From contig NZ_CP041696.1 of assembly GCF_007362955.1 (NCBI RefSeq), positions 744,001 to 808,000 of the forward strand: a stretch of 64,000 nucleotides of DNA, read 5' to 3'. This stretch comes from Lysinibacillus fusiformis (GTDB lineage: Bacteria > Bacillota > Bacilli > Bacillales_A > Planococcaceae). The position numbers were made by a program, and so were the translations under genes. The notes under the pieces are model-generated. The model saw only the letters and a list, made by a program, of their open reading frames with translations. It made no database searches and was not told the origin of the DNA. This document shows, piece after piece, positions 10,939 to 28,869 of the stretch. Every line of letters begins with the position of its first letter. Position 1 is the first letter of the stretch.

Positions 10939-11067
10939 TTGTCATTCCTCCTTGCATTACATTTTTTGCTCCCTCATTTTAATTCGCTACCCATGCGCTT
11001 TTTCCCTTTTTTTGATATGCTTGTTTAGGATAAAAACTATATAGAGCACTATGAGGAGGAAATGATT

Positions 11068-14188: not shown

Positions 14189-14189
14189 A

Positions 14190-14225
14190 TAAAGAAGAAG
14201 ACCACCCATCACGGAGTGGTCTTCT
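14190..14225 (-). terminator. Hairpin terminator forming the 5' exon of the group IIC intron
   Basis: GAAGACCACTCC and GGTGGTCTTC arms with a small loop, followed on the minus strand by TTCTTTAT and then the intron. The same hairpin recurs uninterrupted at 23814-23855. Confidence 0.85.
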
Positions 14226-14234
14226 TAAAGCTTA

Positions 14235-14256
14235 TTCAACTAAAGCACCCCGTTAG
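14235..14256 (+). repeat. Island cassette repeat R, copy 1
   Basis: Exact match to the core CAACTAAAGCACCCCGTTAG, preceded by TTATT. It lies between the hairpin terminator and the Tn3-type inverted repeat. Confidence 0.85.
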
Positions 14257-14331
14257 CACGATAAGGGGACTCGTCAGATTTATGCGGATTTACAACGATA
14301 AGACTTCAATTTTTATACACGATTTTATTCA

Positions 14332-14487
14332 TCAAAGACGATGGTGCAACATTACTTCAAATACTTCAAAACCTTTGCTATGACTGACTTTTAACAAAAG
14401 TGCATAAAACACCCCATAAACAATGTTCATAAGAAAAGCCACGAACGTTGATTTAACAATATTAGTGGCCTTTGAGTTCGTCTCCAA
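14332..14487 (-). other. Coding-like stretch, possible remnant of a membrane protein
   Basis: A 51-codon open frame with a TTG start and no clear ribosome binding site. It has a hydrophobic stretch (FVAFLMNIVYGVFYALLL) after a polar N-terminus. It may be the truncated start of a transporter gene trapped downstream of the acetyltransferase, or chance. Confidence 0.25.
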
Positions 14488-14531
14488 ACTTTGATTTGGG
14501 AACGTTATTTGAATAATGGGTGTATGTAATT

Positions 14532-15056
14532 TTAATACGGTAAAACGTCTATTTTTGATTGTGTAATTCTATTTTCTTTCCAATCATCAAAAATAGCTCC
14601 ATATAAGACTGTATCAGAAATTGTCCCGTCTTCATTTTCCCAAGCATTTCTTAAATAGCCTTCTTTAACAAACCCAGCTTTTGTAAAGCATTTTCGCATC
14701 GCAAGATTATCCGCCCTCGTGTAGCCCTCAATTCGAATTTTTTGTTTTTCACCAAATAAATAATCTTTTAACCACAATAGAGCTTGTGTACCAATATTTT
14801 TACCTCTCGCTCCTTCAGTTAATCGAATATCAAATAAAGGAATGGTATCATCAATATCATCTATAATGATTATTCCAACTTTTTGAGTGTCTAAAATAAT
14901 CCAATATGTTTCTCGCCCATTGGCATAATAACCATTTTCCACAGCTTTTTGAATAGCTCCGTTTTCTAAATGAGGATTCGAATGGTATCTCCAGTCATTT
15001 GAACAAAGTAAGTTCGTTAATTCTTCTTTTTCGCCATTAAATAATTGAATTTTCAT
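14532..15056 (-). CDS. GNAT-family N-acetyltransferase
   Basis: A 174-residue acetyl-CoA-dependent acyltransferase of the RimJ/RimL-like Acetyltransf_3 group. The acetyl-CoA pyrophosphate loop is ARGKNIGTQAL (about residues 81-91), followed by the C-terminal NLAMRKCFTKAGFVKEGYLR segment typical of that group. The substrate is unknown; relatives act on ribosomal proteins, small amines or antibiotics. A ribosome binding site (GGGGAGG) precedes the ATG. It is the only intact gene inside a pair of Tn3-type terminal repeats, and is therefore a likely mobile passenger gene. Confidence 0.85.
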   Translation of the reverse strand: MKIQLFNGEKEELTNLLCSNDWRYHSNPHLENGAIQKAVENGYYANGRETYWIILDTQKVGIIIIDDIDDTIPLFDIRLTEGARGKNIGTQALLWLKDYLFGEKQKIRIEGYTRADNLAMRKCFTKAGFVKEGYLRNAWENEDGTISDTVLYGAIFDDWKENRITQSKIDVLPY

Positions 15057-15166
15057 AATTTACACCTCCCCAAAAATTATAACAAAGTTACCAAAGCTTG
15101 GATTGGGTATGTTTCTACTTATCGTTGTAAATCTGTTTTTTCCTGACGTTACCTCAAGAATGGTTT

Positions 15167-15364
15167 TTATTCCACAATTAAAGTTGCGATATCATTTTCT
15201 ACTATGAAAACCAAGAAGTCATCATCTTCCTCTACACATTCTTTTTCATATCTCATTTCTTTATCGATTAGCATTTCAAAATAGTTTGTTTTCATATTTA
15301 ATTCAAAGACTGGACATTGGTCAAATCTAACATCACCAATATAGATTGCTCTAATTTTTCTCAT
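15167..15364 (-). CDS. Small acidic protein of unknown function
   Basis: A 65-residue protein with a basic N-terminus (MRKIRAIYIGDVRFDQCPVF) and a strongly acidic middle (CVEEDDDF). A purine-rich GGGGGA lies about 11 bases before the ATG, which is weak support. I do not recognise the family. It lies between the Tn3-type right end at 15155 and the R repeat at 15494, in the same orientation as the other cassette genes. It may be a true small cassette gene. Confidence 0.5.
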   Translation of the reverse strand: MRKIRAIYIGDVRFDQCPVFELNMKTNYFEMLIDKEMRYEKECVEEDDDFLVFIVENDIATLIVE

Positions 15365-15493
15365 CTAATATCGTCCCCCATAATGTGTGTAAAATGTTTT
15401 TTTACTTTTCAAAGCATTAATGCATCTAATTGTATTTTACAGTAATACATACACCTATGTGACTCCTTATTGAACACAAGTTAAACAACATTC

Positions 15494-15515
15494 TTTAACT
15501 AACCGTTAGTTGAAG
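15494..15515 (+). repeat. Island cassette repeat R, compact palindromic copy
   Basis: TTTAACTAACCGTTAGTTGA reads as an inverted repeat of the R arm without the AGCACCC spacer. It is followed by A/T-rich DNA that on the minus strand is a T run. Confidence 0.6.
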
Positions 15516-15554
15516 AAAAAAAGTCCCCAAAGCCCCGTTTGGTAACATTAAGTG

Positions 15555-15592
15555 CTAAACGTTGTAAATCCGCATTTTTCTGACGCTACCCC
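15555..15592 (-). repeat. Solo Tn3-type 38-bp terminal inverted repeat
   Basis: On the minus strand this reads GGGGTAGCGTCAG, then ATGCGGATTTACAACG, nearly identical to the known Tn1546 end. No transposase is nearby. It has the same orientation as the end at 15118-15155, so it marks a second Tn3-type insertion or an alternative right end for the cassette starting at 14265. Confidence 0.75.
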
Positions 15593-15639
15593 AATTAGAA
15601 AAATAACTTAGAAATCCATATTTTTTTCTGATATGCTAT

Positions 15640-15712
15640 TCATCAATCTGGCCCTTTTCATGAAGAAAGACGCTTTCCTTATTACGGAAAAGCGCCCGAT
15701 TATGGAATATGG
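15640..15712 (-). repeat. Island hairpin repeat S, copy 1
   Basis: On the minus strand: TCGGGCGC, a stem CGCTTTTCC/GGAAAGCG, then GTCTTTCTTC, AAAGGGCCA and TTGATGAATAG. A related element lies at 27731-27790 and a reduced one at 16990-17015. It probably acts as a terminator. Confidence 0.65.
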
Positions 15713-15751
15713 TTATTGAATTCTTACACCTATACTTTGATGTGTTTTGAT

Positions 15752-16336
15752 TCATAAATTACTATTTTTCTTACCGTCCATTGATCTAGAGTAACCAAAA
15801 CATTCTCTAAATAGCTTCCTACCAATATATTGATGAAAATTATTGTATTTATTCCTGTAATATTCGTTCCAATAGCTAATCATTCTACTATAACTTTTGC
15901 AAAACAAATCAATATTTTCAAAACAAAATCTCTTAATTGGTTCTGTATCTTGTTCTTTTAAGATATCATAAGTCATTTCTAGTATTTCTACGACATATTC
16001 ATCACATATTTTTACGATATAAGGAATAGCCCAATCTTCATAATCCATTAAAAGCAATGATTTCAGATGTTTTAGGCGAACAAACCCATCACAACTTCTT
16101 GAATAAATGCAATGCAAAATCATTTTTTGTTGTACACTTAAATTGTCTATAAATTTATCTGAGTTATCAATGTTGTAAATACGATAAGGAAATTTAATCA
16201 CTTTTTCATCTTGAAAATATTCAATAGTCTCCTGCGATTCATCAAGAGTGACATTATTATAAGTCTGCTTAGGAATCAGTCCAATAACATCAGTCACATC
16301 ATCCCTCAAATATTTTGGAAATCCATCTTGAAACAC
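15752..16336 (-). CDS. Protein of unknown function
   Basis: A 194-residue soluble protein, acidic and aromatic-rich, with no recognised motif. Segments such as LSVQQKMILHCIYSRSCDGF and WAIPYIVKICDEYVVEILE look like conserved helices of a real family. The proposed GTG start at 16336 follows AGGATGTG. The stop of the broken NTR-like gene lies 11 bases upstream, so the two may have formed a two-gene unit. The position among small orphan genes would suit an immunity or stress function, but nothing in the sequence shows it. Confidence 0.65.
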   Translation of the reverse strand: MFQDGFPKYLRDDVTDVIGLIPKQTYNNVTLDESQETIEYFQDEKVIKFPYRIYNIDNSDKFIDNLSVQQKMILHCIYSRSCDGFVRLKHLKSLLLMDYEDWAIPYIVKICDEYVVEILEMTYDILKEQDTEPIKRFCFENIDLFCKSYSRMISYWNEYYRNKYNNFHQYIGRKLFRECFGYSRSMDGKKNSNL

Positions 16337-16347
16337 CTAATCACATC

Positions 16348-16898
16348 CTAATCCAACCTTTTTCTTTTATTTAATATGAAAAACACAACAATGCCAATGG
16401 CTACTGCCACTGAAGCCCAAATATATATTTGATTTCTATTATGTTTATCACTTAAATTAACTTCTTCAATCGAGGGCTGTCCTTCTCCAAGTATCTCCAA
16501 ATCCTCCTGTGAAGAACTCAACACACCGGTACGATTACACATGGTTGATACAAGCGATTTTGCTCCGTACATAATTGATTCGTTAGCATAAACCAAATAT
16601 TCTTCTCCTTTTATAAAACTATATCCACAATCTCCTCCACCTTGACCAGTAGTAATGATAATTTGTGATTGTTCAACACCCTTCCAGGTGTTGGTTACCT
16701 CAAAAAGAACTGATTTAGTTGTATATCCTTTTAAACTTTTATATCAACAATTTCCCCACTAAATACGGCTTTTGAAAGTTCAAATTCTTCTTCTACACTT
16801 GGTAAATATGCACACGAACATGCACTTGTAATCGAAGGAAAAGAGCCTATCATAAAAATGAAAGCCAGAATTGTCATTGCTTTCTTCAAATAAATCAT
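16348..16898 (-). pseudogene. TIMP/NTR-like secreted protein, frameshifted
   Basis: The N-terminal part (start ATG at 16896-16898) has a signal peptide ending SITSA, then CSCAYLPSVEEEFELSKAVF, like the Cys-X-Cys start of bacterial tissue-inhibitor-of-metalloproteinase-like (netrin-fold) proteins. That frame stops at 16731 after GEIVDIKV. The remainder continues in another frame: GYTTKSVLFEVTNTWKGV, DCGYSF, then STMCNRTG, and a C-terminal membrane helix (IYIWASVAVAIGIVVFFIL) with a basic tail. A small deletion with frameshift near 16725-16735 is the likely cause. The product would be a membrane-anchored extracellular domain; its function is unknown. Confidence 0.75.
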
Positions 16899-17032
16899 CT
16901 CAATTTCACCCACTATCACCTAGGTTTAGTATTTTTTATAATATAATACTAATGTTAACATATAAACCTAGTTTTTCTTGGTAATCTTATCCCATTAAAT
17001 GGCCCGATTGTTGAACACAAGAAACAACACTC

Positions 17033-17059
17033 TTCAACTAACCTGCTCTGTTAATTCAA
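17033..17059 (+). repeat. Island cassette repeat R, copy 3
   Basis: TTCAACTAACCTGCTCTGTT followed by AATTCAA, a diverged R copy. On the minus strand it follows the terminator hairpin at 17062-17090. Confidence 0.65.
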
Positions 17060-17061
17060 TA

Positions 17062-17090
17062 AGAAAAAAAGAGCTGCCTACGCAACTCAA
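17062..17090 (-). terminator. Hairpin terminator between two R repeats
   Basis: On the minus strand GAGTTGCGTAGGCAGCTC forms a short stem, followed by seven T. It is bracketed by R copies at 17033 and 17096. Confidence 0.7.
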
Positions 17091-17095
17091 TAATC

Positions 17096-17114
17096 TTCAA
17101 GTAAAGCACTCGTT
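17096..17114 (+). repeat. Island cassette repeat R, copy 4
   Basis: TTCAAGTAAAGCACTCGTT, diverging immediately after into CGTATTATAAGG, near the left side of the IS110 element. Confidence 0.65.
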
Positions 17115-17125
17115 CGTATTATAAG

Positions 17126-17345
17126 GTCAGCCAGAGAAATCTGGTTGACTATTTTTTATTCAATTTATAGATTGATAGTAGCCGGGGTAGAACGGAAGCA
17201 CCCGTGGGACTTGATCCCGACAACTAAACTGTTCGCCCTCTACTTGTTAACACATGATTAGGCTGGTTGGGACATAGTGATCCCGTATAACAAGCGAAGA
17301 TATGAATAACAAGCTAGATAGAGGTTACCGGTCAATACACTACAT
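17126..17345 (+). ncRNA. IS110-family leader, candidate bridge RNA
   Basis: IS110-group transposons express a structured RNA from the non-coding end upstream of the recombinase that pairs with donor and target DNA. Here about 220 bases upstream of the recombinase hold no frame but several inverted repeats: GTCAGCCAGA/TCTGGTTGAC (17126-17149, then a T run), GGGACTTGATCCC, and CTTGTTA paired with TAACAAG enclosing a loop of about 40 bases with an inner GGGAC..GATCCC. Exact ends and guide bases cannot be set by eye. Confidence 0.5.
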
Positions 17346-17361
17346 GAGGAGGAGATAAACT

Positions 17362-18597
17362 ATGAATCCAGTAGTAGGTCTGGATGTCGCAAAAGGTGAA
17401 AGTCAGGTTCAAATGTTCTTGGATAAAAAAATGCCCTATAAAAGCAGTGTGAAGATTAAACATACGGTGGGAGGACTTGAAGAGTTACACTCTTATTTAC
17501 TAGATTTAGAGCGTCAAACAGGGTTAAAACCACCTGTTGTATTGGAATCAACAGGTCACTATCATGCTCCAATTGTACAATTTTTAGAAGCTAGAGAATA
17601 TATTGTCATTATTGTCAATCCGCTCGTTTCATACCGAGCTAAAAGCTCTAGTTTACGAAAAACTAAAACAGATGTAATTGATGCCTATCACTTAGGCGAA
17701 CTGTATTACAAAGAGGATTTAGAGCCTCAGAAAAAACGTGGTATTCAGCTTTTAAACCTTCGGCATCTGACAAGGCAACACGAAAATATGACGGGAATTA
17801 TGGTTCAAACAAAGTTACAATTTCAAGCTGTATTAGATCAAGTTTTCCCTGAGTATAAAGGAGTTTTTGGTGATTTGTACGCAGAAATTTCATTAAGGAC
17901 TTTACAGTCCTACCCTACATCTGAATTAGTACTAGACGCAGGTGTAGAAGAGATTGCACAATTTATTGATAAGCATTGTAAAGCACGTTCATTTAATTGG
18001 ACGCATGAAAGAGCTGAAGTATTAATCGTAGCTGCAGAACGCAACCCATTTCGGTCAACGCTTTATCAAAGCCTTCTCGTCAGTCTGAATATGTATATTG
18101 ATTTACTTCAAGCTTACCGCCAACAACTTTCTACGCTAGAGCGTGAGATTGATCAATTGGCGGCACAACTCGAAGAATATGAATTAATCCAATCACTTCC
18201 CGGTGTAGGTGAAAAAATCGCGGCCACGATACTTTCAGAAATTGGGGAAATTGAGCGGTTTAATCATCCAAAAAAGTTAGTAGCCTTTGCGGGACTAGAT
18301 CCCAGCGTGTTTGAATCAGGTCGGTTTAAAGGCACGAAAAATCACATTACCAAACGCGGCTCAGCTAGGCTTCGCCATATGCTTTATACAGCCGTTCGCT
18401 GTTCCATTCGAGATAGCCGTAAAAAGAAAACAACAGATGAAACTATTGCCCGAAACAAACGATTACGAGCCTTCTACGACTTAAAACGGGAGGAAGGAAA
18501 GCCGTATAAAGTAGCCATTATTGCTTGTGCTAATAAGCTTTTACACTGGATTTATGCGATTTTAAAAACGAAAGCACCATTCCAAGAAACTATTTAA
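17362..18597 (+). CDS. IS110-family transposase (DEDD recombinase), intact
   Basis: A 411-residue recombinase that moves its element through a bridge-RNA-guided reaction. The N-terminal RuvC-like DEDD domain has D8 (GLDVAK), E62 (LESTGHYH), D104 and D107 (KTDVIDAYH). The C-terminal Tnp_20 domain has SLPGVGEKIAATILSEIG and LVAFAGLDPSVFESG, whose Ser is the usual second nucleophile, then ITKRGSARLR. A coiled coil of about 50 residues lies between. GAGGAGGAG precedes the ATG. All key residues are present, so it is probably active. It runs opposite to the cassette genes. Confidence 0.95.
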   Translation: MNPVVGLDVAKGESQVQMFLDKKMPYKSSVKIKHTVGGLEELHSYLLDLERQTGLKPPVVLESTGHYHAPIVQFLEAREYIVIIVNPLVSYRAKSSSLRKTKTDVIDAYHLGELYYKEDLEPQKKRGIQLLNLRHLTRQHENMTGIMVQTKLQFQAVLDQVFPEYKGVFGDLYAEISLRTLQSYPTSELVLDAGVEEIAQFIDKHCKARSFNWTHERAEVLIVAAERNPFRSTLYQSLLVSLNMYIDLLQAYRQQLSTLEREIDQLAAQLEEYELIQSLPGVGEKIAATILSEIGEIERFNHPKKLVAFAGLDPSVFESGRFKGTKNHITKRGSARLRHMLYTAVRCSIRDSRKKKTTDETIARNKRLRAFYDLKREEGKPYKVAIIACANKLLHWIYAILKTKAPFQETI

Positions 18598-18754
18598 TAA
18601 CAGAATTTTCAAATAAAACAAAAACCTTCCACACTGAATGAGGAGGGTTATTTGTCTTGCGCATTTTTAGTATAACATGAAGTGTTTTTCGATTAAAAAT
18701 GTTTTTCTTGACATTCTATTAGCTGGTTTAGTTGAAGAAGAAAAGTGAAGCTTA

Positions 18755-18776
18755 TTCAACTAAAGCAACCCGTTAG
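18755..18776 (+). repeat. Island cassette repeat R, copy 5, with an inverted half-copy
   Basis: TTCAACTAAAGCAACCCGTTAG. An inverted arm (TTTAGTTGAAGAAG at 18727-18740) upstream pairs with it. It lies 12 bases after the stop of the gene at 18789-19382. Confidence 0.8.
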
Positions 18777-18788
18777 CACAACAGCGAT

Positions 18789-19382
18789 TTAGTCATTAAA
18801 CATTTTTTCAATATTATTTAGTTCTATCTTTTCTTCTTCTGTACGATAATCGTTATATTCATTTTCAACAATTATTCTTAACGTCCCATTCTGAAAGAAT
18901 GATAACAATCTCCTTGCTTCATTAACCAACTTAGGTTTAATATATTTTAATATTTCTCTCCTACCATCAAATTCGTTTTTATCCCATTTTTCTTTTTGAT
19001 TTAATTTAGGAAGATTATCAATTCCAGTAACATAATTAAGCCCTAAATATCGAAGAAACGAATATCCACTGCAATAATCGTCGTATATCTGCTCTAAAAC
19101 CTCTACTAAATCACCTTTTTCATAAATTATATTTTCTAAAAGTGAAACAATCCGCATTTGTTCAAACTCACCAAATGGAATTTTAATTTCAATAACTTTC
19201 TCTAATTCATTTTTAATGTGCCTACTTCTATAGTTCAAATCAAGTAGGTTGAAGTAAAAGTCATCACCATAAACCTTTTCAATTTCTGGTGTATTATAAA
19301 GCCATTCTTCGAATTCTGAAACGCTAATTAGTCCTTTATAAATTTTATAAAACTGCTTTTGAATGTCCTTTTCATTGCTCAC
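18789..19382 (-). CDS. Protein of unknown function, possible immunity-type protein
   Basis: A 197-residue acidic, soluble, helix-rich protein starting MSNEKDIQKQFYKIYKGLIS. Segments IPFGEFEQMRIVSLLENI and YCSGYSFLRYLGLNYVTGI look family-conserved, but I cannot name the family. The size, charge and tryptophan/tyrosine content are common in orphan immunity proteins of polymorphic toxin systems; that is a guess. The R repeat begins 12 bases after its stop, the typical arrangement in this island. There is no strong ribosome binding site (GGAGTTGAAG about 5 bases ahead). Confidence 0.65.
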   Translation of the reverse strand: MSNEKDIQKQFYKIYKGLISVSEFEEWLYNTPEIEKVYGDDFYFNLLDLNYRSRHIKNELEKVIEIKIPFGEFEQMRIVSLLENIIYEKGDLVEVLEQIYDDYCSGYSFLRYLGLNYVTGIDNLPKLNQKEKWDKNEFDGRREILKYIKPKLVNEARRLLSFFQNGTLRIIVENEYNDYRTEEEKIELNNIEKMFND

Positions 19383-19419
19383 TCGCTTACTTCAACTCCT
19401 TAAATTCTAACTTCGCATC

Positions 19420-19441
19420 TTCAACTCTTCTACCCCGTTAG
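19420..19441 (+). repeat. Island cassette repeat R, copy 6
   Basis: TTCAACTCTTCTACCCCGTT followed by AGCACAAG, a diverged R copy. Confidence 0.6.
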
Positions 19442-19477
19442 CACAAGAAGAAAAAGATGCTGTGCTGCAACACCTTG

Positions 19478-19498
19478 TTTAACTCTTGCCCCCGTTAG
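19478..19498 (+). repeat. Island cassette repeat R, copy 7
   Basis: TTTAACTCTTGCCCCCGTTA followed by GTTAAATTTAATC. On the minus strand the stop codon of the small broken gene at 19505 lies 6 bases away. Confidence 0.6.
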
Positions 19499-19504
19499 TT
19501 AAAT

Positions 19505-19751
19505 TTAATCTTTAATTACTTCAACCTCTTTTATCGCATTTGTAAATTCCGTTGTGTTTTTAGTAATTGTATGCCCCTCTACAAGTGACATTTCATATTC
19601 TCCATTTGATAAAGATGTATAATTCAAATCTTTTTTGTTCTTGAACACTCTAACTTGGTGACACTGAAATTAAAAACCACATTGCTAATAAAATCAACCA
19701 AATTACTGCTATACCTATAATTAAACACTTCACGCTCAATGCCCCTATCAT
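19505..19751 (-). pseudogene. Small membrane-anchored protein, probably frameshifted
   Basis: Two short frames read on as one gene. The first (from about 19751 or a better-placed GTG at 19736) encodes a single hydrophobic helix, CLIIGIAVIWLILLAMWFLI, and stops at 19650. The second, one base out of register, encodes DLNYTSLSNGEYEMSLVEGH and ends KEVEVIKD before a stop at 19505-19507. The joined product would be a signal-anchored peptide of about 80 residues. R repeats lie on both sides (19478 and 19759), so this is one complete cassette, now broken or possibly two tiny genes. Confidence 0.45.
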
Positions 19752-19758
19752 AACCTTC

Positions 19759-19780
19759 TTCAACTAACCTGCTCCGTTAG
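19759..19780 (+). repeat. Island cassette repeat R, copy 8
   Basis: TTCAACTAACCTGCTCCGTT followed by AGTTTAATAATACC. The same following bases are found at the R copy at 23660. Confidence 0.75.
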
Positions 19781-19887
19781 TTTAATAATACCTCAAATTC
19801 ATATTTGGATTTAATCCCCTACTATTATCTCTAATAAAATCAGTTGCACTATCAACCTGACCTGTTATATTGATGGGCACGTAAATA
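19781..19887 (-). pseudogene. 3' remnant of a cassette gene, copy A
   Basis: On the minus strand an open frame without a start reads YVPINITGQVDSATDFIRDN and ends NPNMNLRYY at a TAA next to the R repeat. A diverged copy of the same C-terminus lies at 23685-23790. The upstream part was replaced by an IS3 remnant. The family is not recognised. Confidence 0.55.
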
Positions 19888-20055
19888 AAAAATGTATTAT
19901 ATTGAATCGTCTATACTAAGTTGGATATAAAAAATAAGTGCTATCACACTTAGACTACCAAATTAAAGGAAAGTGCTACGATGCCACGTCAAGGTCGAAC
20001 TTTTACATCGGAATTCAAATTGCATTTAGCCCCATTGCATGTTATGTCCGAGTAA
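19888..20055 (+). mobile_element. IS3-family left-end remnant with start of orfA
   Basis: A TGTATTATATTGAATCG end is followed about 75 bases on by a ribosome binding site and a short frame beginning MPRQGRTFTSEFKL, the usual N-terminus of IS3/IS150-group OrfA. Homology stops after about 14 codons and the frame ends at 20055. The rest of the element is missing. Confidence 0.6.
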
Positions 20056-20062
20056 AAAACTA

Positions 20063-20110
20063 TTGACCTTTATGTTATCAATGTGATTATATAATCTTAT
20101 TGATAACATA
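20063..20110 (+). promoter_or_regulatory. Promoter with 12-bp inverted-repeat operator
   Basis: TATGTTATCAAT at 20071-20082 and ATTGATAACATA at 20099-20110 are perfect inverted arms around TATATAAT, a good -10 box. TTGACC at 20063 could be a -35 box, although the spacer is long. The site lies just ahead of the HTH regulator gene and probably binds its product. Confidence 0.7.
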
Positions 20111-20127
20111 TGGAGGTGAATATCCAA

Positions 20128-20682
20128 ATGGATATTAGCATTAAAGATATGATGGACTGCATTGTCAACCCTGTTAAAAATCAAATTGTTCTTGCGATTC
20201 AAGCAAAAGGCGAGTGTACAGCAAAAGATTTATTATCATTACAATACGACATCCCACAGGCCACACTCTATCGCACATTAAATCGTTTGGTAGAGAGTGG
20301 GGTTATAAAGATTGTCGAAGAAAAAAAAGTTCGAGCCGTAACGGAGAAAGTTTACGCATTGAATGAGAGTTTTTTAAATGTCAACCAATCTGTCATTGAG
20401 CAGAACGATGGTGAAGCATATTTTAAGTTATTTACGAACTTTTTAATTGTATTGATGAAAGAGTTTCAAAATTACGCTGAAAAATCCTCTATAAATATTG
20501 TAGAAGATGGGTCAGGTTTCAGCGCAACTCCTATCTATGCAACTGTTGAAGAAATGTTAGATATCGGAAATAAATTTAAAGAAATAATTGCTCCTTATCA
20601 AACAAGAAATGCATCGGTTGAGGAACAAAAAATGCATATTCTCGCAACTATTATTACGCCGCCAAACGATAAAAAAATATGA
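20128..20682 (+). CDS. Winged-helix transcriptional regulator
   Basis: A 184-residue protein with an N-terminal helix-turn-helix of ArsR/PadR-like type (AKDLLSLQYDIPQATLYRTL, then RLVESGVIKIVEEKKVRA, about residues 28-70) and a helical C-terminal dimerisation or ligand region. The ATG at 20128 is preferred because GGAGG at 20112-20116 gives correct spacing; the ATG at 20110 lies over that site. It is probably a repressor of its own promoter and of the downstream hydrolase gene, whose start lies 10 bases after its stop. The pair is on the plus strand, unlike the cassette genes. Confidence 0.8.
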   Translation: MDISIKDMMDCIVNPVKNQIVLAIQAKGECTAKDLLSLQYDIPQATLYRTLNRLVESGVIKIVEEKKVRAVTEKVYALNESFLNVNQSVIEQNDGEAYFKLFTNFLIVLMKEFQNYAEKSSINIVEDGSGFSATPIYATVEEMLDIGNKFKEIIAPYQTRNASVEEQKMHILATIITPPNDKKI

Positions 20683-20692
20683 GGTGACTGTT

Positions 20693-21370: not shown

Positions 21371-21895
21371 TAGTCTGATTGTTGCAACCAAGAACGGGGT
21401 ATGAATATCTGTCTGATAAAGATGTTGTGTAAAATCTAAGGGATCATACCTTGCCAAACTGTAAAAGACGTATGGGAGGAAATTGGGTTAGTGTTCTCTA
21501 TAACTTACTGTTTATTCAACTAACCTCCCTCTATAAACATTGATGTATCAACGGTTTCCATCACTTCGTGATGAATAGAAAATAATTTTTCACTTCATTT
21601 ATAAACAGTATTTCGAATTTATAGTTATAATTTACAATCAAGGTGTACGCTTCGCTAAAACTAATTGGAATCATTAGCTTTTTTATCCACTATGTGATGC
21701 ACAATGGATCTCTGCGATACTTATGACGACGTACCCTCCCATGTCTCTTAGCGTCATTTGCGCTTACATTCCTTCGTTCGGTCTATTCATAAGGCAGAGG
21801 CCTGCTATGCTGCACCGGAGACTCATAGTCTGAGTTTAGTTATTTTGCTGGCTTCTCCGTGTCATCCTTCTTTTATAGTTCGATGAAAGAATTGA
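21371..21895. other. Non-coding stretch: partial R repeat and 3' non-coding end of decayed IS110
   Basis: A partial R copy (TTCAACTAACCTCCCTCTAT) lies at 21515. From about 21545 to 21895 there is no convincing frame, but several inverted repeats occur (for example AGCGTCATTTGCGCT and CTAATTGGAATCATTAG). This is the region 3' of the minus-strand IS110 recombinase and may hold the guide RNA of an IS1111-type element. Confidence 0.45.
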
Positions 21896-23135
21896 TTACG
21901 CTGCCTCTGCGAGACAGTAGAGGTCCTTCATCATATGTTGCTCATTAAAAAAGACTTTCTTTTTGCATATGCCATGTAATACCTTCAGTAATTTACCACA
22001 GAGTATCACCATTGACTGCTTTCCCCTTAAGGGATTTTGTTGTCTTGTTGTGTAATATTCATGAAGTTTTTTAAACGCTTCGTTATGACGAATAAGCGGG
22101 ACTATCACCTTAAATAGAGTGCTTCTAAGCTTCTTTCGTCCTCGTTTAGAGATATGTTTTTGTCCCTTATGTTGACCAGACGAGCTTTCACGTAATGTTA
22201 ATCCCGCTAGTTTTATAAGTTGGCGTGGATTTTCATAAAGTGAGAAGCTTCCTACTTCTGATAGTAAATCAACGATTGTCGCGTCTCCTAAACCAGGAAC
22301 TGAAGCCAGTATTTCATATTCGATTGTTGTTTGTGCCATTTCTGCTAATTGATCATTTACAGTTTCAATTTCGGTTTCTAATAACCGATACTGACGTAAG
22401 AGCGTGGCGATTTCATGTTGGGCCATCTGTGTTCCTTCTGTCAGTCCGATAGAGTTTTGCGCGGTTGCAATGAGAAGCTTGGCTTTCGGTAACTGTGGGG
22501 CTCTCATTCCCTTTACCTGTCGGTAAAGAAAGAGTAGCTCTTCAGCTGTTTTCTCTTTAATATCTTTTGGTAATGGCGTCATTTCTAGTGTTGCAAGTGC
22601 CATCTTCCCGAAGAATGATTCGATTTTTGATACTAGCCAAATCCTCCGTCAATTTTGAACGAAGAGTAGAACCAATACGAAGCTCAGCTTCAATGTCTTT
22701 CAGTATACGTGGATAACTGAAACGTCCATCTTTTAATAAGCGAGCGATGACTAGTGCATCTTTTTTATCATGCTTTGTCGGTAAGTTATCATCGAGTTCT
22801 TTCGAACGTTTTACGTGCATTGGATTCACCATGACCAGTGGGATTCCGTATTAATCTAAGAAATAGGCTAAGTTCATCCAGTAGTGGCCTGTAGGCTCAA
22901 TACCTATTATTACTTCAGTTTTCTTAGCTTCCTTCATTGTTTGCAGAATCTTTACATACAAGTTTTCGAAGCCTTCTTTCGATTGATGTACCGCAAAAGC
23001 TTTTTCTATTACTCGCCCGCGTTCATCGACAAAGCATGCGTAATGAATACGCTTGGCAATGTCCATGCCGACAACGAGTGTATTTTCAGTAACTTGATTA
23101 ATTTTATTATTCCATTTAGAATGCATAAAGGAGTC
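21896..23135 (-). pseudogene. IS110-family transposase, decayed (IS1111-like)
   Basis: Three fragments rebuild one recombinase of about 415 residues. The N-terminal piece (22851-23135) has GMDIAKRIHYACFVDE and GIEPTGHYWMNLAYFLD, then an in-frame TAA followed by YGIPLVMVNP. The middle piece (22557-22832) has [20 protein letters not shown] and shifts frame after ASIKNRII. The C-terminal piece (21896-22603) has the Tnp_20 motifs SVPGLGDATIVDLLSEVG and LIKLAGLTLRESSSGQHKGQ, then ISKRGRKKLR. One nonsense codon and one frameshift make it inactive unless complemented. It is only distantly related to the intact IS110 element at 17362. Confidence 0.9.
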
Positions 23136-23171
23136 CTCCTTGTTTGATGATGGGTCAATGGTCGTTGACAC

Positions 23172-23389
23172 TCATGCATCATACTAGAGGGCTCTTTTTC
23201 TTTCAATACCTCGAACATCCTTCAAACAGGAATGCTGCTCCATTAAAGTATAAAAAGGCTCTACTACTTATTGAAGTAAATCACCCCGTTAGCCATCCAT
23301 GTCGCGTACAATCAACACTACACCACAGAAAATGAAAGATTATTACGTTCTTTCATGGGAGTTGAAGAAGGAGATTTAAAAATCAAGTA
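23172..23389. other. Non-coding stretch with R repeat and a plus-strand coding-like remnant
   Basis: It contains the end of the decayed IS, an R copy at 23271 and, directly after the R core, a plus-strand frame reading VAYNQHYTTENERLLRSFMG and ending DLKIKY at 23393. This looks like the 3' end of a lost gene in the opposite orientation to the neighbouring cassettes, but it may be chance. Confidence 0.35.
23271..23292 (+). repeat. Island cassette repeat R, copy 10
   Basis: TTGAAGTAAATCACCCCGTT followed by AGCC. The bases upstream (GGCTCTACTACTTATT) are shared with the copy at 24192. Confidence 0.7.
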
Positions 23390-23578
23390 TTAATTTTTAT
23401 TTTGCTCATCTAACTTTTGTAATATAGTGTCTAATTTTTGGTTAATTATCTGTTTTTCTTTAGCAGAATCTTTTAATCGTTTAAAAGCAATAAAAATAAT
23501 AGCAAAAACTAAAATAACAAAGACTAAATATATTAAAGTCGCTATAACATCGCCAGTATTCACAATCACAAAAAACAC
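23390..23578 (-). CDS. Small membrane protein, DUF4083-like
   Basis: A 62-residue protein with one membrane helix (about residues 10-32, IATLIYLVFVILVFAIIFIA) and a charged amphipathic helix with heptads (IINQKLDTILQKLDEQ). This is the layout of DUF4083 proteins, common small proteins of unknown function in Bacillus. Start codons are ambiguous: the GTG at 23578 overlaps a GGGGG ribosome binding site, so a GTG nine bases later is likely. It is a single-gene cassette between R copies at 23271 and 23660. Confidence 0.6.
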   Translation of the reverse strand: MFFVIVNTGDVIATLIYLVFVILVFAIIFIAFKRLKDSAKEKQIINQKLDTILQKLDEQNKN

Positions 23579-23659
23579 CCCCTAAATTTATTTAATCACA
23601 CCTCTATATGAATATAATAACAAAAAGTTACAATCTTCATAATTGGTTAGCAATCCTTG

Positions 23660-23681
23660 TTTAACTAAACTGCCCCGTTAG
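23660..23681 (+). repeat. Island cassette repeat R, copy 11
   Basis: TTTAACTAAACTGCCCCGTT followed by AGTTTAATAATACCCC, shared with the copy at 19759. Confidence 0.75.
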
Positions 23682-23684
23682 TTT

Positions 23685-23790
23685 AATAATACCCCTAATT
23701 CATTTTATTTGGATTTAATCCCCTATTATTATCTTTAATAAAATCAGTTGCACTATCAATCTGACCTGTTATGATAATAGGCACATAAAT
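23685..23790 (-). pseudogene. 3' remnant of a cassette gene, copy B
   Basis: On the minus strand an open frame without a start reads FIYVPIIITGQIDSATDFIK and ends NPNKMN at a TAG next to the R repeat. It is a diverged paralogue of the remnant at 19781-19887. The upstream part is replaced by the hairpin at 23814-23855. Confidence 0.55.
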
Positions 23791-23813
23791 GAAAAAACAT
23801 AAATAAGGAAATC

Positions 23814-23855
23814 AAGAAGAAGACCACCCATCACGGAGTGGTCTTCTTCTTGATT
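23814..23855 (-). terminator. Hairpin terminator, second copy of the group IIC target hairpin
   Basis: ATCAAGAAGAAGACCAC and GTGGTCTTCTTCTTGAT form a long stem with loop CCATCACGGA. The same hairpin at 14190 carries the group IIC intron; this copy has none. Confidence 0.85.
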
Positions 23856-23856
23856 A

Positions 23857-23878
23857 TTCAACTAAAGCACTCCGTTAC
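23857..23878 (+). repeat. Island cassette repeat R, copy 12
   Basis: TTCAACTAAAGCACTCCGTT followed by AC. The stop codon of the DUF3953-like gene (23875-23877 on the minus strand) lies inside this repeat. Confidence 0.85.
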
Positions 23879-24108
23879 TTCAATAAGAAACTTTTGATTG
23901 ATACAAATAAAATAAATATAAATACAACTATACTTAGCCAGCAGTTACCTTTTTGTCCCTTTTGAAATTCTCTTAATCCCATTACCAACATCATTAAACC
24001 TAAAAACAACATCATATATGGTTGAAACTTAAAATCTTCAGTAATCAATCCATACCCTGCAAGTGAAATAACTGTTATTGATAAAATAATTTGCAAAAAC
24101 TTTAACAA
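23875..24108 (-). CDS. DUF3953-like membrane protein
   Basis: A 77-residue protein with three hydrophobic helices and the conserved core YGLITEDFKFQPYMMLFLGL, MLVMGLREFQKG and SIVVFIFILFVS, which is the pattern of DUF3953 proteins. The function is unknown. The start is a TTG at 24106-24108 preceded by AAGGGGG with 7-base spacing. Its last codons (SFLLK) and stop overlap the R repeat at 23857, so the repeat supplies the 3' end of the coding sequence. It is a single-gene cassette. Confidence 0.75.
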   Translation of the reverse strand: MLKFLQIILSITVISLAGYGLITEDFKFQPYMMLFLGLMMLVMGLREFQKGQKGNCWLSIVVFIFILFVSIKSFLLK

Positions 24109-24191
24109 TTAAAAACCCCCTTAACCAGGTTACCACATATCCCCAAAACTATTCTGCCTTTAGTTTAAGTAGAAAAAGGCTCTACTCCTTA

Positions 24192-24212
24192 TTGGAGTAA
24201 AGCACTCGTTAG
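24192..24212 (+). repeat. Island cassette repeat R, copy 13
   Basis: TTGGAGTAAAGCACTCGTTA followed by GTTGAAGTAG. The left flank (GGCTCTACTCCTTA) matches the copy at 23271. Confidence 0.7.
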
Positions 24213-24231
24213 TTGAAGTAGAAAAGTGAAG

Positions 24232-24266
24232 CTTCTTCAACTAAAGCACCCCGTTAGTTGAAGAAG
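24232..24266 (+). repeat. Island cassette repeat R, copy 14, full palindrome
   Basis: CTTCTTCAACTAA and TTAGTTGAAGAAG are perfect 13-bp arms around AGCACCCCG. The kinase gene's stop codon and last residues (FFN) are encoded inside the right arm. Confidence 0.9.
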
Positions 24267-24874
24267 TAAATCTGTTTTGCGTAGGAATCCCAATCTTTAT
24301 TATCAGTATTTATTTCAATTGTAGGAATGATTGAATTTTCAGCTTGACTCCTATACTCTTGTTGTTGTTCTAATAATAATTCACACGCTAATTTCATTTC
24401 TTCTACGGTTTTCCCTTCCCATTCATTGGGATTTCTACTACTAATTCTTTGCTCTAAATTCTCTGGAGATACAGTTAACAAAGTACATCTTGCTCCCATT
24501 TCAAATAACTGGGCTTCTAATTCCTTGATTTCATCTGATATTGAATGAGAAAATGCTACTCGATGATTTAAATGAAACCTTTCCAATATAAAGAATAAGC
24601 CTTTTGAACGTTGGGTTTGTCCAATTTCACTTGCCCAATTATTTAACATTTTCAGCATCGTAACTCTTTCTCTTAAGATTTGTAAGTGTTCCTCACGACT
24701 TAACCACTTTAATTCACCATTTACTTTGTGTAATACTTGCGAATAATGCTCACTAAGAACTATGACACTGCGTTCGGCATCATCATTTGCGTGAAGTTGT
24801 TTCAATGATTTTAAGACTGATGTTTTTCCAGCATTTGAGTAGCCTTCTAAGATTATCCCTCTAAATTTACTCAT
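24254..24874 (-). CDS. P-loop kinase-like ATPase of unknown substrate
   Basis: A 206-residue protein with an N-terminal Walker A motif GYSNAGKTSVLKSL (residues about 11-24) after a hydrophobic strand, and the overall look of thymidylate-kinase-like or zeta-toxin-like P-loop kinases (ILERFHLNHRVAFSH may supply the Walker B Asp/Glu region, QRISSRNPNEWEG a lid). It could be a nucleotide or small-molecule kinase; the substrate is unknown. AGGAGG precedes the ATG. The C-terminal residues YFFN and stop lie inside R copy 14. A second group II intron is inserted about 65 bases upstream, between the gene and its upstream R repeat. Confidence 0.7.
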   Translation of the reverse strand: MSKFRGIILEGYSNAGKTSVLKSLKQLHANDDAERSVIVLSEHYSQVLHKVNGELKWLSREEHLQILRERVTMLKMLNNWASEIGQTQRSKGLFFILERFHLNHRVAFSHSISDEIKELEAQLFEMGARCTLLTVSPENLEQRISSRNPNEWEGKTVEEMKLACELLLEQQQEYRSQAENSIIPTIEINTDNKDWDSYAKQIYFFN

Positions 24875-24938
24875 TTTTTCCTCCTAATTAATGCTATTTC
24901 TATCTAAATAAGGTCTGTAGAATTATTTACGTTTATTG

Positions 24939-27649
24939 ATACAGATAGGTAAGGGTTTGAAGTTATCGCTCCCTTTTCCCCCTGTTCACACCGTACGTGC
25001 GACTTTCACCGCATACGGCGTTCCAACTAAACCAATTTATTCTTTCTATATTTTAAGCAGACGAGTGCTGTGTTTCCAAAGTTAGATTATTTCATTGTTA
25101 CATTTCAGTCGTAAGATATTTACTTTTTCTATTTGCCTAATTGAAAGCTTTACAGCTTTTAAGAATTCTTCAATTTTAAATTTGTCTTTTAAATGTATAA
25201 GCTCATGTATAGCCTTGTTCAAAACTATTAAGTTTGAATAGCTATCATCTTTTGAAATGTGAAAAGGATTAATATGATGACAATGCCAATCGTTAATACC
25301 CAATTCTTCACCTAAAATGGCACATTTGCCGTACTGGGCAATAAACTTACTGATTCTGTTGTCGTTATATTCAATAGATCTGTTTGGAATGTAGTTTCTC
25401 ATGATGTAAGAAAGAGTACTTCTATTGATAGCCTTTAGGCTATTGTGAATTTTTGCTCTGCCTTCGGCAGTAAAGTTACATATCACTTGGGAGAAACCAA
25501 GTGTCTTTCTCCAACGTTGTGCATGGATGGGGACAAAGACCATATTTTGTATTTTAAATAGTTTGGACTTGTAACCCCCATATCTTTTCTGTAAAGTCTT
25601 CGTCATCTCATGGAAACTTGCCTCTGTTCGAATATTCTTTAGTTGATTGTATAACGTCTTGCGTAAATGTAGATTTAACTCATTCAAGTTGATTGTAATT
25701 TGAGTTGCAGCTGAGTAATAGTTTTGGATTCCCATTACAACGGTATTAAAGTTCCAAACTGTCTGAATGCAAGGCTTTCTCTTGATTACTTTTATTGCTT
25801 CTTTAATCTTTTGAAAAGCATTTGCTTTAGCCTTTTTTGACATATCAGACTTTGCTACATAACCAAATCTGGTCTTACCTTTTCTTATGGCTTTCATTGA
25901 AAACCCTAGAAACTCTGATGAGTTTTTCTTCAAATTAACTACCTTTGATTTTTCTTCACTTGTTTCCAAGTGTAATCTCTTACTCAAGAAATCTTTTAAC
26001 TCATTGTACATTTTAATTGCTTGTGACCTTGTGCGACACATTACCTTAAAATCATCCGCATAGCGGACAATAAAACACTCTTTCAAACTCGATTTCTTTA
26101 ATTGCTGATACTTACTACCATTGGTCGAGTAGGTATATTTACTTTCAAATGTTTCCCACTGGTCACTAACCCACCAATCCAACTCATTTAACACAATGTT
26201 AGATAATAATGGCGACAGAATACCACCTTGCGGTGTACCTTTTGTAGGGATACCCTCTCCTACAATCTCTGCTTTTAGTAACCTAGATATAATAGAAAGA
26301 AGGGATTTATCCCTGATACCTAATGACCACATTTGTTTTAAAAGTTTGCTATGATTTACATTATCAAAGAAACCTTTAATATCTACATCAACACAATGAT
26401 ATAGTCCAGATTGGTTAATCAGAAATTCAAGTCTAACTTTAGCGTGATGAGTGTTTCTGTTCGGTCTAAAACCATAACTATGTTTATGGAATTTAGCTTC
26501 ACAAATTGGCTCTAAAATTTGCAGTACGCATTGTTGAAAAATCCTGTCCCAAATCGTAGGTATTCCTAGTGGTCTAGTTTTATCTACTCCTTTTGGGATG
26601 AAAACCCGTCTAACTGGTTGTGGTTCATACCATTTGAACATAGCTTGAACTTTTTCTATTACATCTTCTACTCGTAGATGCAAAACATCTTTAATTGTTA
26701 ATTTATCAATTCCAGCAGTTTTACTACCTGTATTTCTTTTGATGTTTCGGTAGGCTAGACGTATATTATCCTTAGAACTCATTAATTCTGTTAAATTATA
26801 GAAATGATGACCACAAACACTTTGAGCGTAGAGTGTATCGAAGCAATCTTGCATACCATAATACTCATTGTGTCTCAGTTTCTTCCGTTTCAATAAGTCG
26901 ATGACTCCTTTCGGAGTTAAACCTCTTTTAGTCTCACAAGAACCTTATTAATCAATAAAGAACTGCCTTACTTGGTTGAATAAATCTTTATTAGTCTAGT
27001 GGCTATCCCTCCATGTGGATTAAACATTTCATTGGTACTATGCCACCACTTTCACTGATATTAAAGCAAGTTATACAACAACTAGTTTCATTGATGTTTT
27101 CCTCGCCAACGTTTCATTAGAAGTAAGTCCTCCACGTTATCAGCTTACAACGTTGAATTATATCTATTATAGAATGAACTTAGGTGCTTCCTCTAAGCCT
27201 GTTAACTCTCATACGCCTGTAACGTATCATGGCTTTTCATATTAGCTAGTTTTACTCACCCACAGCTAACCTCACAATTTGGTGATATACACATTTCTAT
27301 GTATCGCAGTTATAGACCCGTACATTCAGAAGTTCGTCAGCTTAACCTTTTCTTGTAGGTTTATTTGCATCCTCACCATATCCATTCAACTCAAGCATAA
27401 TGAACTACACCACTCCAGCGAGTAGGCTTTCGTCAGCCGTACTGTTACGGTAATTTCTCACGCCTTTTCACCGAGCTTATAACACAATCATTCTTACTAA
27501 ATCCAGTGCTATTCGATTAAGAGAGAACCCTTCCGAGCGTTACCTCATCATTTGATTCTTCGATATAACCCTTCAATTCCGTAAGGAACTGTCTAGCCTT
27601 TACCTGAGTGATGTGACCACCCTCAATTTAAGCTAGAAACATTTCGCAC
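24939..27649 (-). mobile_element. Group II intron with HNH-containing maturase, complete, inserted in an R repeat
   Basis: The 5' end at 27649 reads GTGCGAAATG on the minus strand. Domain V near 24990-25025 has CCGTATGCGG, a GAAA tetraloop and CGCACGTACGG. Domain VI and the 3' end (CTTACCTATCTGTAT) are near 24939. A reverse transcriptase gene lies in the expected internal position (25082-26893). The 5' exon ends in the R-repeat arm GGAGCAGTTTAGTT, and the rejoined exon TTTAGTT + CAATAAAC resembles the repeat consensus TTTAGTTGAATAAG. It is not closely related to the intron at 12313. Confidence 0.9.
25082..26893 (-). CDS. Group II intron reverse transcriptase/maturase with HNH endonuclease
   Basis: A 603-residue multifunctional intron protein that reverse-transcribes the intron, helps it splice and cuts the target strand. 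Domains in order: RT0-7 (residues about 45-340, with SYGFRPNRNTHHA, GTPQGGILSPLLSNIV and the active-site VRYADDFKVM), maturase X (about 360-460, GIQNYYSAATQ), and a C-terminal HNH nuclease (about 520-575, DWHCHHINPF and NLIVLNKAIHELIH). All catalytic motifs are intact, so the intron should be mobile. The start codon is a TTG or near-start at 26893 within the intron. It is about 180 residues longer than the compact class C protein at 12383. Confidence 0.92.
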   Translation of the reverse strand: MKRKKLRHNEYYGMQDCFDTLYAQSVCGHHFYNLTELMSSKDNIRLAYRNIKRNTGSKTAGIDKLTIKDVLHLRVEDVIEKVQAMFKWYEPQPVRRVFIPKGVDKTRPLGIPTIWDRIFQQCVLQILEPICEAKFHKHSYGFRPNRNTHHAKVRLEFLINQSGLYHCVDVDIKGFFDNVNHSKLLKQMWSLGIRDKSLLSIISRLLKAEIVGEGIPTKGTPQGGILSPLLSNIVLNELDWWVSDQWETFESKYTYSTNGSKYQQLKKSSLKECFIVRYADDFKVMCRTRSQAIKMYNELKDFLSKRLHLETSEEKSKVVNLKKNSSEFLGFSMKAIRKGKTRFGYVAKSDMSKKAKANAFQKIKEAIKVIKRKPCIQTVWNFNTVVMGIQNYYSAATQITINLNELNLHLRKTLYNQLKNIRTEASFHEMTKTLQKRYGGYKSKLFKIQNMVFVPIHAQRWRKTLGFSQVICNFTAEGRAKIHNSLKAINRSTLSYIMRNYIPNRSIEYNDNRISKFIAQYGKCAILGEELGINDWHCHHINPFHISKDDSYSNLIVLNKAIHELIHLKDKFKIEEFLKAVKLSIRQIEKVNILRLKCNNEII

Positions 27650-27668
27650 AACTAAACTGCTCCGTTAG
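27650..27668 (+). repeat. Island cassette repeat R, copy 15, split by the group II intron
   Basis: AACTAAACTGCTCCGTTAG. Its left arm is cut exactly at the intron 5' splice site at 27649/27650. Confidence 0.8.
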
Positions 27669-28201: not shown

Positions 28202-28278
28202 TTAAACATTGTTCATATTTTAATGTCTTCCGCAAATTATGGGGTGAAGTCGTAATTCTCATTGATATGTGGTCTTCT

Positions 28279-28867: not shown

Positions 28868-28869
28868 AT

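Follow-up and report, generated by a model that had tools for sequence, protein, structure and literature searches.

The window (64,000 nucleotides of Lysinibacillus fusiformis contig NZ_CP041696.1, positions 744,001 to 808,000) very probably holds part of an integron-like cassette system of the Bacillaceae and their relatives, in which units would be exchanged at a short core by a dedicated recombinase. The system is apparently an undescribed integron-like type with a recombinase other than IntI, and we infer recombination at the cores from sequence comparison. An undescribed cassette-exchange system of Bacillales was the main proposal of the first-pass annotation, and it is supported by the clustering of the repeat in arrays, by genes with differing neighbors, and by shared segments that end at or near cores.

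The repeat core and the array in the window

The repeat unit is a core (AACTAACGGG..TTAGTT) that is frequently doubled around a terminator. The repeat exists as it was first reported: the exact core CAACTAAAGCACCCCGTTAG, searched with up to three mismatches, had five matches in the window versus 0.00 expected. A relaxed two-type pattern matched 13 times at 12–30 kb of the window, on the minus strand only; two of these matches (27118 and 27808, three mismatches each) were at chance level, and the same pattern had three matches in each of two control stretches. A weight matrix for the core was built from 150 sites, drawn from the same 78 recombinase loci that are described below. Applied to the window, it located 12 cores on the minus strand and none on the plus strand, spanning 14256 to 27783. 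In the controls, the matrix had four matches in 400 kb of the same genome, none in 276 kb of relatives, and three in 472 kb of shuffled sequence. Two further minus-strand cores (18755-18776 and 23271-23292) were supplied by the pattern search, for 14 in all.

The features of the region are collected in Table 1. The single orientation of the repeat and its pairing around hairpins or terminators, both noted in the first-pass annotation, were borne out in the window. Its placement of most copies at the 3' end of a gene held for three of the 14 cores: two overlap a stop codon (23878 and 24257), and one (18776) follows a stop at a distance of 13 nt. The remaining cores either form the second half of a doubled site, are farther away, or adjoin mobile elements. 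Nor are the genes minus-strand throughout, as two of them (20110-21370) run on the opposite strand. A general promoter scan, not directed at the Pc promoter from which integron arrays are read, gave results at shuffle level.

Table 1. Features of the array region, in window positions
Positions	Strand	Feature	Basis
12301-29012	minus	Region missing in relatives: cassette array and its mobile elements	Empty-locus comparison
12313-14193 (bounds approximate)	minus	Group II intron containing reverse transcriptase frames; follows the last site's terminator	RF02001 at 13932-14105, RF01998 at 13807-13891 (Rfam); RVT_1 1.1e-40
14195-14256	minus	Core 14235-14256 and terminator hairpin 14195-14226	Pattern, terminator and matrix searches
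14532-15056	minus	GNAT acetyltransferase gene, likely a cassette gene	PF13302 2.3e-9
15167-15364	minus	Orphan frame, 65 aa	Pfam: none at E<=0.1
15752-16336	minus	Orphan frame, 194 aa	Pfam match sub-threshold only
16348-16973	minus	Cassette with second copy in the large array (3997527-3998181), 90% identity	
17029-17121	minus	Compact doubled site: hairpin flanked by two cores	Model R1, 75 bits
17362-18597	plus	IS110-family transposase between core remnants	PF01548 1.3e-28, PF02371
18755-18776	minus	Core 13 nt behind stop codon	Pattern search
18789-19382	minus	Orphan frame, 197 aa, likely a cassette gene	No Pfam match
19415-19503	minus	Doubled site, cores 19441 and 19498	R1 42.7 bits; matrix
19759-19785	minus	Core, gene-side type	Matrix score 46
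20110-21370	plus (opposite to array)	Two genes	
21896-23171	minus	Second IS110-family transposase, split over two frames	PF02371, PF01548
23271-23292	minus	Core adjoining inserted 78-bp repeat (about 23293-23370)	Pattern search
23360-23689	minus	Cassette with 62-aa orphan gene (23390-23578)	98% identical to large-array 3977476-3977805
23656-23883	minus	Long doubled site: core 23878, terminator 23810-23855, gene-end remnant, core 23681	
23875-24108	minus	DUF3953 (YczI-like) gene; stop codon within core	PF13129 1.1e-12
24192-24257	minus	Two cores and terminator	Matrix, terminator search
24254-24874	minus	P-loop-like gene; stop overlaps core	AAA_18 26.6 bits, below cut-off of 29.4
24939-27646	minus	Group II intron, 603-aa reverse transcriptase, inserted in core after TTAGTT	RF02004, RF00029; RVT_1 8.7e-38
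27647-27668	minus	Core interrupted at right arm by group II intron	Sequence; matrix
28279-28872	minus	Fragment of the 12.3-14.2 kb group II intron	100% over 594 bp

The confinement of the repeat to ca. 14.2-27.7 kb holds within the window but not genome-wide, where 12 of 16 matches (up to two mismatches) lie elsewhere, nine of them at 3.975-4.036 Mb. The repeat is concentrated in arrays rather than spread uniformly over the genome. A second one-way array in the same genome has 54 cores on the plus strand and three on the minus strand (140 kb read). Thirteen relatives are without the 16.7-kb array of the window; in genomes G125 and G109, the counterparts of window positions 1-12300 and 29013-30188 adjoin, with 20 bp between them.

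This empty locus bears on the notion that a MITE-like, terminator-carrying repeat, or the resident IS110 elements and group II introns, spread behind genes that were themselves static. IS110 and group II elements are indeed located in or beside cores, and a 78-bp block (the P block) is inserted in ca. 10 cores of the source genome. However, the empty locus lacks the entire array and not merely its repeats, genes flanked by cores recur among different neighbors, and the movement of single genes between cores is seen in part in close strains, which makes this explanation very unlikely. The alternative named in the first-pass annotation, a terminator-linked mobile repeat, is half true because the doubled site contains a terminator; what moves is not the repeat alone, for genes move as well and a recombinase is tied to the sites. 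The P block was also considered as a cassette end; that assignment was dropped, and the block is treated as an inserted element.

Recombinases of the arrays and of the source genome

None of the 21 tyrosine recombinase matches in the genome falls in 744001-808000, in agreement with the first-pass annotation. Its description of the array as lacking an integrase, however, applies only to the window's own genome, which is without the array type. Relatives, sister species among them, have a tyrosine recombinase of 281 aa, XerA/C-like in type, that is located inside such arrays. It is antisense to the array in 77 of 77 fetched loci with cores (one further locus has none). In the 78 named loci, 932 cores are on the other strand from the recombinase and 17 share its strand, with at least one opposite-strand core in 77 loci and at least four in 71. 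A core lies 60 nt (56-70) from the recombinase stop in 58 of 74 loci; on the start side, 42 of 75 loci have one at a distance of 70 nt (66-74). Beside the start is a conserved attI-like block that ends in a core, behind which the cassettes differ; the core at this position exceeded the matrix threshold in only those 42 of 75 loci.

The array-type recombinase was found in 18 genomes, all of them site-positive (p = 2.8e-10); 24 of 42 site-positive genomes, the window's included, are without it at E<=1e-60. The array-type enzymes form one clade (support 100/100) apart from the XerC/XerD-like rows. Six residues (R140, K164, H230, R233, H256 and Y265), which we take to be catalytic, are invariant across 22 aligned rows. 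The array recombinase narrowly passed NCBIfam model NF040815 recomb_XerA_Arch (221.6 bits, cut-off 220), whose name, "site-specific tyrosine recombinase/integron integrase", gives no indication of cassette arrays. Against the IntI model TIGR02249, it scored 90 bits (cut-off 265).

The source genome has cassettes and, as recombinase, a divergent relative only (P0001, at 640.5 kb); its arrays would therefore be either relics or moved in trans. P0001 lies on the same strand as the adjacent cores, outside the platform layout, and has ca. 16 residues between two matched stretches, compared to ca. 55 positions in the IntI profile. It was rejected as the recombinase of the system, being of a related type whose occurrence does not follow that of the sites (6/14, p = 0.34). 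Close to an isolated core at 3.307 Mb is a long frame, presumably Tn554-like, with a sigma-factor-like start in frame with a recombinase; it was set aside.

Gene movement and break points

Genes with cores at both ends were found among differing neighbors, and, as the idea of gene exchange between repeats had implied, the same gene has different neighbors in different strains. The cassette at 23360-23689 and its copy in the large array differ in their neighbors on both sides. The DUF3953 gene also occurs at other places in the source genome, and four Bacillaceae plasmids that were fetched carry it too. Loci L174 and L180 share one platform and carry different cassettes at the attI-like core.

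Ends of shared segments were tallied with recombinase-versus-recombinase matches left out. A core was no more than 30 nt away from 207 of 748 right ends and 152 of 748 left ends, versus 143 of 3740 random positions; the majority of ends (541 right, 596 left) were farther than 30 nt from a detected core. In five close locus pairs, 8 of 10 segment ends were at a core or within ca. 30 nt of one, and L184 and L192, which are 99.7% alike over 10 kb, diverge directly after CTAACGGGTGC. The expectation that junctions would fall at a fixed base of the repeat is supported by near-identical segments, which end at or near the CTAACGG core.

Those distant ends would fit a shuffling of genes by RecA, through homologous recombination or through gene conversion, at terminator-linked repeats that resemble one another, with the recombinase a bystander; some repeats are long, with similarities of up to 91% among terminator units and 200-bp blocks. 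Such shuffling is nevertheless unlikely to be the explanation, given that the sharpest breaks are at the ca. 20-nt core itself (as in L184/L192), that orientation is preserved, and that the recombinase clade tracks the arrays and is antisense in every locus with cores.

The following scheme best explains the data. Units are joined head to tail at the core, and two kinds, gene cassettes (5' end CGGGGCAGGTTAGTTGAA) and short terminator units (5' end CGGGTGCTTTA), alternate in many places, the recombinase gene of relatives taking the place of a terminator unit. The attI-like sequence, ca. 70 nt from the recombinase start codon, ends in the core, and there the next cassette starts. The recombinase would bind the core at its inverted arms and catalyze strand exchange in or beside CTAACGG; units would leave as circles and be reinserted, with fixed polarity, at another core or at the attI-like site. 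As a result of excision and one-way reinsertion, a gene with its terminator could occupy any position in an array. We consider the chances about even for a second, IntI-independent origin, in the Bacillaceae and from a XerA/C-like recombinase, of cassette arrays that have a resident integrase and an attI-like site, with the integrase platform itself among the exchangeable units and arrays thereby able to gain, lose or relocate their integrase.

Relation to known cassette systems

The arrays are one-way arrays of mobile gene cassettes. With integrons, superintegrons and CALINs they share length, single orientation, mostly single small genes, and a site behind each gene; half of the sampled array genes are without a known family, the recombinase gene runs counter to the array and has a conserved site next to its start, and some arrays, as in CALINs, have no resident integrase. 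They differ in that the enzyme is XerA/C-like and not IntI, that the site is conserved in sequence and has a terminator within it, and that the recombinase gene is internal to the array, where it occupies the position of a terminator unit, instead of standing at an end.

Covariation was used to test for an attC-type fold. In the composite site, 78.4% of cells were paired versus 77.2% in shuffles; eight pairs were changed on both sides (8.9 in shuffles), as were 41 cells (31 in shuffles). Covariation in single cores was likewise near shuffle level. A single-strand attC-type fold is therefore not supported by covariation, with sequence and not pairing conserved, and the attC likeness seen in the first-pass annotation persists in layout only. 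A canonical integron remnant (CALIN), with an IntI-type integrase acting on attC sites in folded single-strand form, would account for the shared cassette orientation and for a doubled site whose terminal CTAAC..GTTAG and unpaired spacers resemble the attC layout. It is extremely unlikely, because the pairing is near shuffle level, the array recombinase falls far below the IntI cut-off, and no IntI above the curated cut-off was found in the source genome or in any of 16 site-rich genomes.

The dif modules (pdif) of Acinetobacter plasmids likewise have genes between short Xer-type sites and an Xer-like enzyme. A core in which a short spacer separates inverted arms, together with an Xer-like recombinase, would suit the movement of gene modules by housekeeping XerC/XerD at dif-like sites. 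That reading is exceedingly improbable, since the clade that tracks the arrays is separate from the XerC/XerD-like rows and the cores are one-way (932 versus 17 in the recombinase loci, 12 versus 0 in the window), whereas C/D and D/C sites are about equally frequent on Acinetobacter plasmids (PMC6449649). The dedicated recombinase with its attI-like site and the long chromosomal arrays differ from dif modules as well. So does the core sequence, as judged against the published dif layout of 11 + 6 + 11 bp (PMC6449649).

Integrons are described as nearly absent from Firmicutes, where IntegronFinder 2.0 reports one complete integron (Limnochorda pilosa) and a few CALINs (PMC9024848). No integron-like system of the Bacillaceae was found in searches of openly licensed PMC full text. 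Sites of the present type were detected in 42 of 121 genomes of the family (E<=1e-5) and, at E<=1e-6, in 103 of 261, or between roughly one third and two fifths of those searched in one large group of Bacilli. If confirmed, the system would open up an extensive reservoir of small mobile genes among environmental Bacilli and would allow the integron features that any cassette system needs to be separated from those peculiar to IntI. Sites are also present on Bacillaceae plasmids, and large plasmids have both sites and recombinase. The plasmid recombinase is annotated as "tyrosine-type recombinase/integrase" at most, or is unnamed, and plasmid relatives labelled xerA are 34-36% identical to the array recombinase.

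Repeat, sites and cassettes

The shared repeat reported in the first-pass annotation is real and occurs far beyond chance. In the window (G000:C1:744001-808000), 12 cores (the ca. 20-nt repeat with CTAACGG and TTAGTT) were located with a model and a pattern search added 2; every one lies on the minus strand. The host chromosome (4.97 Mb) also carries a large one-way array, in which 54 plus-strand and 3 minus-strand cores were found over the 140 kb read; core spacing there has a median of 615 bp and a largest gap of 16.1 kb. Open frames in this array were called by length alone, and 67 of 93 non-overlapping ones lie on the plus strand. GC skew places the replication origin of this chromosome at about 1.95 Mb and its terminus at about 4.5 Mb; 31 of 33 non-overlapping matches to the doubled-site model (at least 30.6 bits) are co-directional with replication.

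Features of the window and its chromosome (G000:C1)
Feature	Position	Strand	Remarks
Large one-way array	3.951-4.035 Mb, window's chromosome	plus	same core as window
P0001-type recombinase gene	G000:C1:640542-641381		relatives at fetched loci L113-L122; at least 73% identical to each other's reference
Recombinase frame with sigma-factor-like N-terminus	G000:C1:3306.7-3309.0 kb		continuous in frame; also L016 8196-9998 and L043
DUF3953 gene, further copies	4005.6 and 4021.4 kb, same chromosome
Segment shared with large array	window 23360-23689		98%, other neighbours
78-bp repeat	window about 23293-23370
78-bp repeat, nine more full copies	array G000:C1:3975-4036 kb
TrmB/PadR-like regulator and isochorismatase-domain gene	window 20110-21370	against array direction	between two cores
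Core-like CTAACTAACGTGGAAGTTAAG	window 29050-29075		directly behind ald stop codon

Read in gene-strand order, the end of many genes falls within or ahead of AACTAACGGGTGC; then come a terminator, TTATTGAACTAACGGGGCAGGTTAGTTGAA and another gene. The consensus, built from the best 150 of 279 sites in 78 recombinase loci, is TTaAACTAACGGGTGCTTTAcTTcAAGA..(hairpin)..TTTTTTCTTATTGAACTAACGGGGCAGGTTAGTTGAAgAAG. Both halves of a doubled site are of one core kind, with inverted arms around a 7-9 nt spacer; in a search with a 190-nt limit, doubled sites measured 73 to 228 bp. The right half of the core varies with what comes next: it reads GGGGCAG where this is a gene and GGGTGC where it is a terminator unit. 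A gene-end motif, TTTGTGAAGAAATGTACTTAAA, recurs before many cores behind unrelated genes, at the recombinase stop side in L142-L219 and in the window genome's own array. An attC-type fold is not supported by covariation; pairing contributes little beyond sequence.

No family was assigned at E<=1e-3 to 10 of the 20 large-array frames chosen for Pfam. The families found include glyoxalase, two alpha/beta hydrolases, short-chain dehydrogenase, and AHSA1-like, CAAX-protease-like and PhzF-like proteins. Genes on the plasmid stretches include GNAT, DinB, GrpB, DUF and hypothetical ones.

An array-tied recombinase and its platform

The window's genome encodes a 280-aa tyrosine recombinase, P0001, and a search from it led to a related, array-tied type that is ca. 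66% identical to it. Among 121 family genomes (sites at E<=1e-5, P0001 relatives at E<=1e-60), 42 have sites, 34 a P0001 relative and 24 both (p = 4.4e-7). The array type occurs in 18 of these genomes, every one of which has sites (p = 2.8e-10); 14 genomes carry the P0001 type, 6 of them site-positive (p = 0.34). P0001-type recombinases are thus relatives of the array type whose occurrence does not follow that of the sites.

When named genomes were scanned, 292 recombinase relatives were found, from which 78 loci were retained. Their hosts are Lysinibacillus, Psychrobacillus, Sporosarcina, Paenisporosarcina, Viridibacillus, Solibacillus, Neobacillus, Bacillus, Mesobacillus, Cytobacillus, Litchfieldia, Oceanobacillus and others; a few unexpected names, Chryseobacterium for example, may come from contigs with wrong labels. 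Cores are present in 77 of the 78 loci, at least 4 in 71, and none was found in the 11.9 kb of L160. In total, 932 cores lie opposite the recombinase strand and 17 on it. Array-type sequences form one clade, separate from XerC/XerD-like sequences (support 100/100). Among solved chains, XerA-like ones and XerD are the closest in sequence, and the IntI4 match is limited to the C-terminal part. By profile score, the array recombinase is not an IntI, the integrase of canonical integrons.

When loci were compared side by side, the recombinase gene was found in the position of a terminator unit. The platform runs from a gene end with CTAACGGGTGC through a terminator, the antisense recombinase gene and ca. 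70 nt with shared blocks beside the recombinase start (GGAATTATTGCC and TATAGAAAT) to CTAACGG, after which the cassettes vary between loci. With the threshold set so that 5% of random stretches pass it, the distance from the recombinase start to a core is 70 nt (10-90% range 66-74) in 42/75 loci, and that from its stop is 60 nt (56-70) in 58/74. Further cores flank the platform on both sides in 53 of the 57 loci having 3 kb each side; the platform therefore lies inside arrays.

No array-type gene was found in the window's genome; site-positive G072 and G084 hold recombinase pieces only, some with stops, and the L201 gene contains a stop. Arrays can therefore outlive their recombinase. The recombinase frame with a sigma-factor-like N-terminus has a lone core ca. 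145 nt upstream of its start.

Together, the sequences point to an integron-like cassette system that has a non-IntI recombinase of its own, whose reaction we infer. Of the genomes of the group that were searched, roughly one third to two fifths have it. No earlier description was found in the open-access literature searched in full text, and the system is apparently undescribed. The dif modules described in PMC6449649 differ from these arrays in orientation and core.

Cassette movement and segment ends

The window's DUF3953 gene recurs twice in its chromosome, the two copies having >1 kb in common, and again on plasmids of Cytobacillus, Peribacillus (two) and Mesobacillus, each time with a different terminator behind it and different neighbours. 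Across all fetched loci, with the recombinase gene left out, 374 shared segments connect different loci. Their ends lie <=30 nt from a core in 207/748 (right) and 152/748 (left) cases, compared to 143/3740 random positions; among the 118 pairs that are 88% or more identical, ends lie <=25 nt from a core in 82/236 (left) and 77/236 (right). Most segment ends are therefore not at a detected core, which may be due in part to divergence, undetected cores and locus edges.

Breaks at cores are sharpest in close pairs of loci. L184 and L192 (ca. 99.7% identity over 10 kb) diverge right after CTAACGGGTGC. Divergence falls at, or ca. 30 nt or less from, cores on both sides in L181/L193, L157/L158 and L174/L180, and on one side in L211/L212; the remaining ends of L211/L212 and L184/L192 are off any core. 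The platforms of L174 and L180 are 98.8% alike, with different cassettes at the attI-like core, and L180's cassette there has a relative (80-91%) elsewhere within L174's array. A gene common to L157 and L158 (98.7%) has a gene unit behind it in one locus and a terminator unit in the other; the two part after CTAACGGG.

The empty locus and mobile elements

In the relatives G125 and G109 (91-92% identity in the flanks), window positions 1-12300 and 29013-30188 are joined with 20 bp between. Nine more relatives have the same flanks joined, with 54 to 803 bp between aligned parts, and in G014 and G128 the place is taken by other DNA, 7.8 and 5.3 kb long, respectively. No core above the threshold used was found in any of the 14 fetched stretches of this locus. 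Most simply, the 16.7 kb would have been gained in the window's lineage. Empty sister genomes have TAATTAAAGTGGCAGTTAAG in place of the core-like sequence behind ald. The array may have entered near that sequence, though homology breaks off a few tens of bases beyond it.

The 16.7-kb region contains two IS110-family transposases and group II introns with reverse transcriptases, and several of these elements lie in or beside cores. In integrons, the IS1111-attC family is a parallel to such elements. At window 27646 and in the attI-like core of L178, and so in two different genomes, TTAGTT is followed by an intron that begins with GTGCGAAATGTTTCTAGC. The group IIC-attC introns of integrons (PMC7923331) parallel the introns in cores here. 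The 78-bp repeat (CCCATGAAAGAACG..CATGGATGGCT), with two hairpin-like stretches, follows the AACT of cores and keeps a single orientation throughout; similar sequence occurs in L168 and L185.
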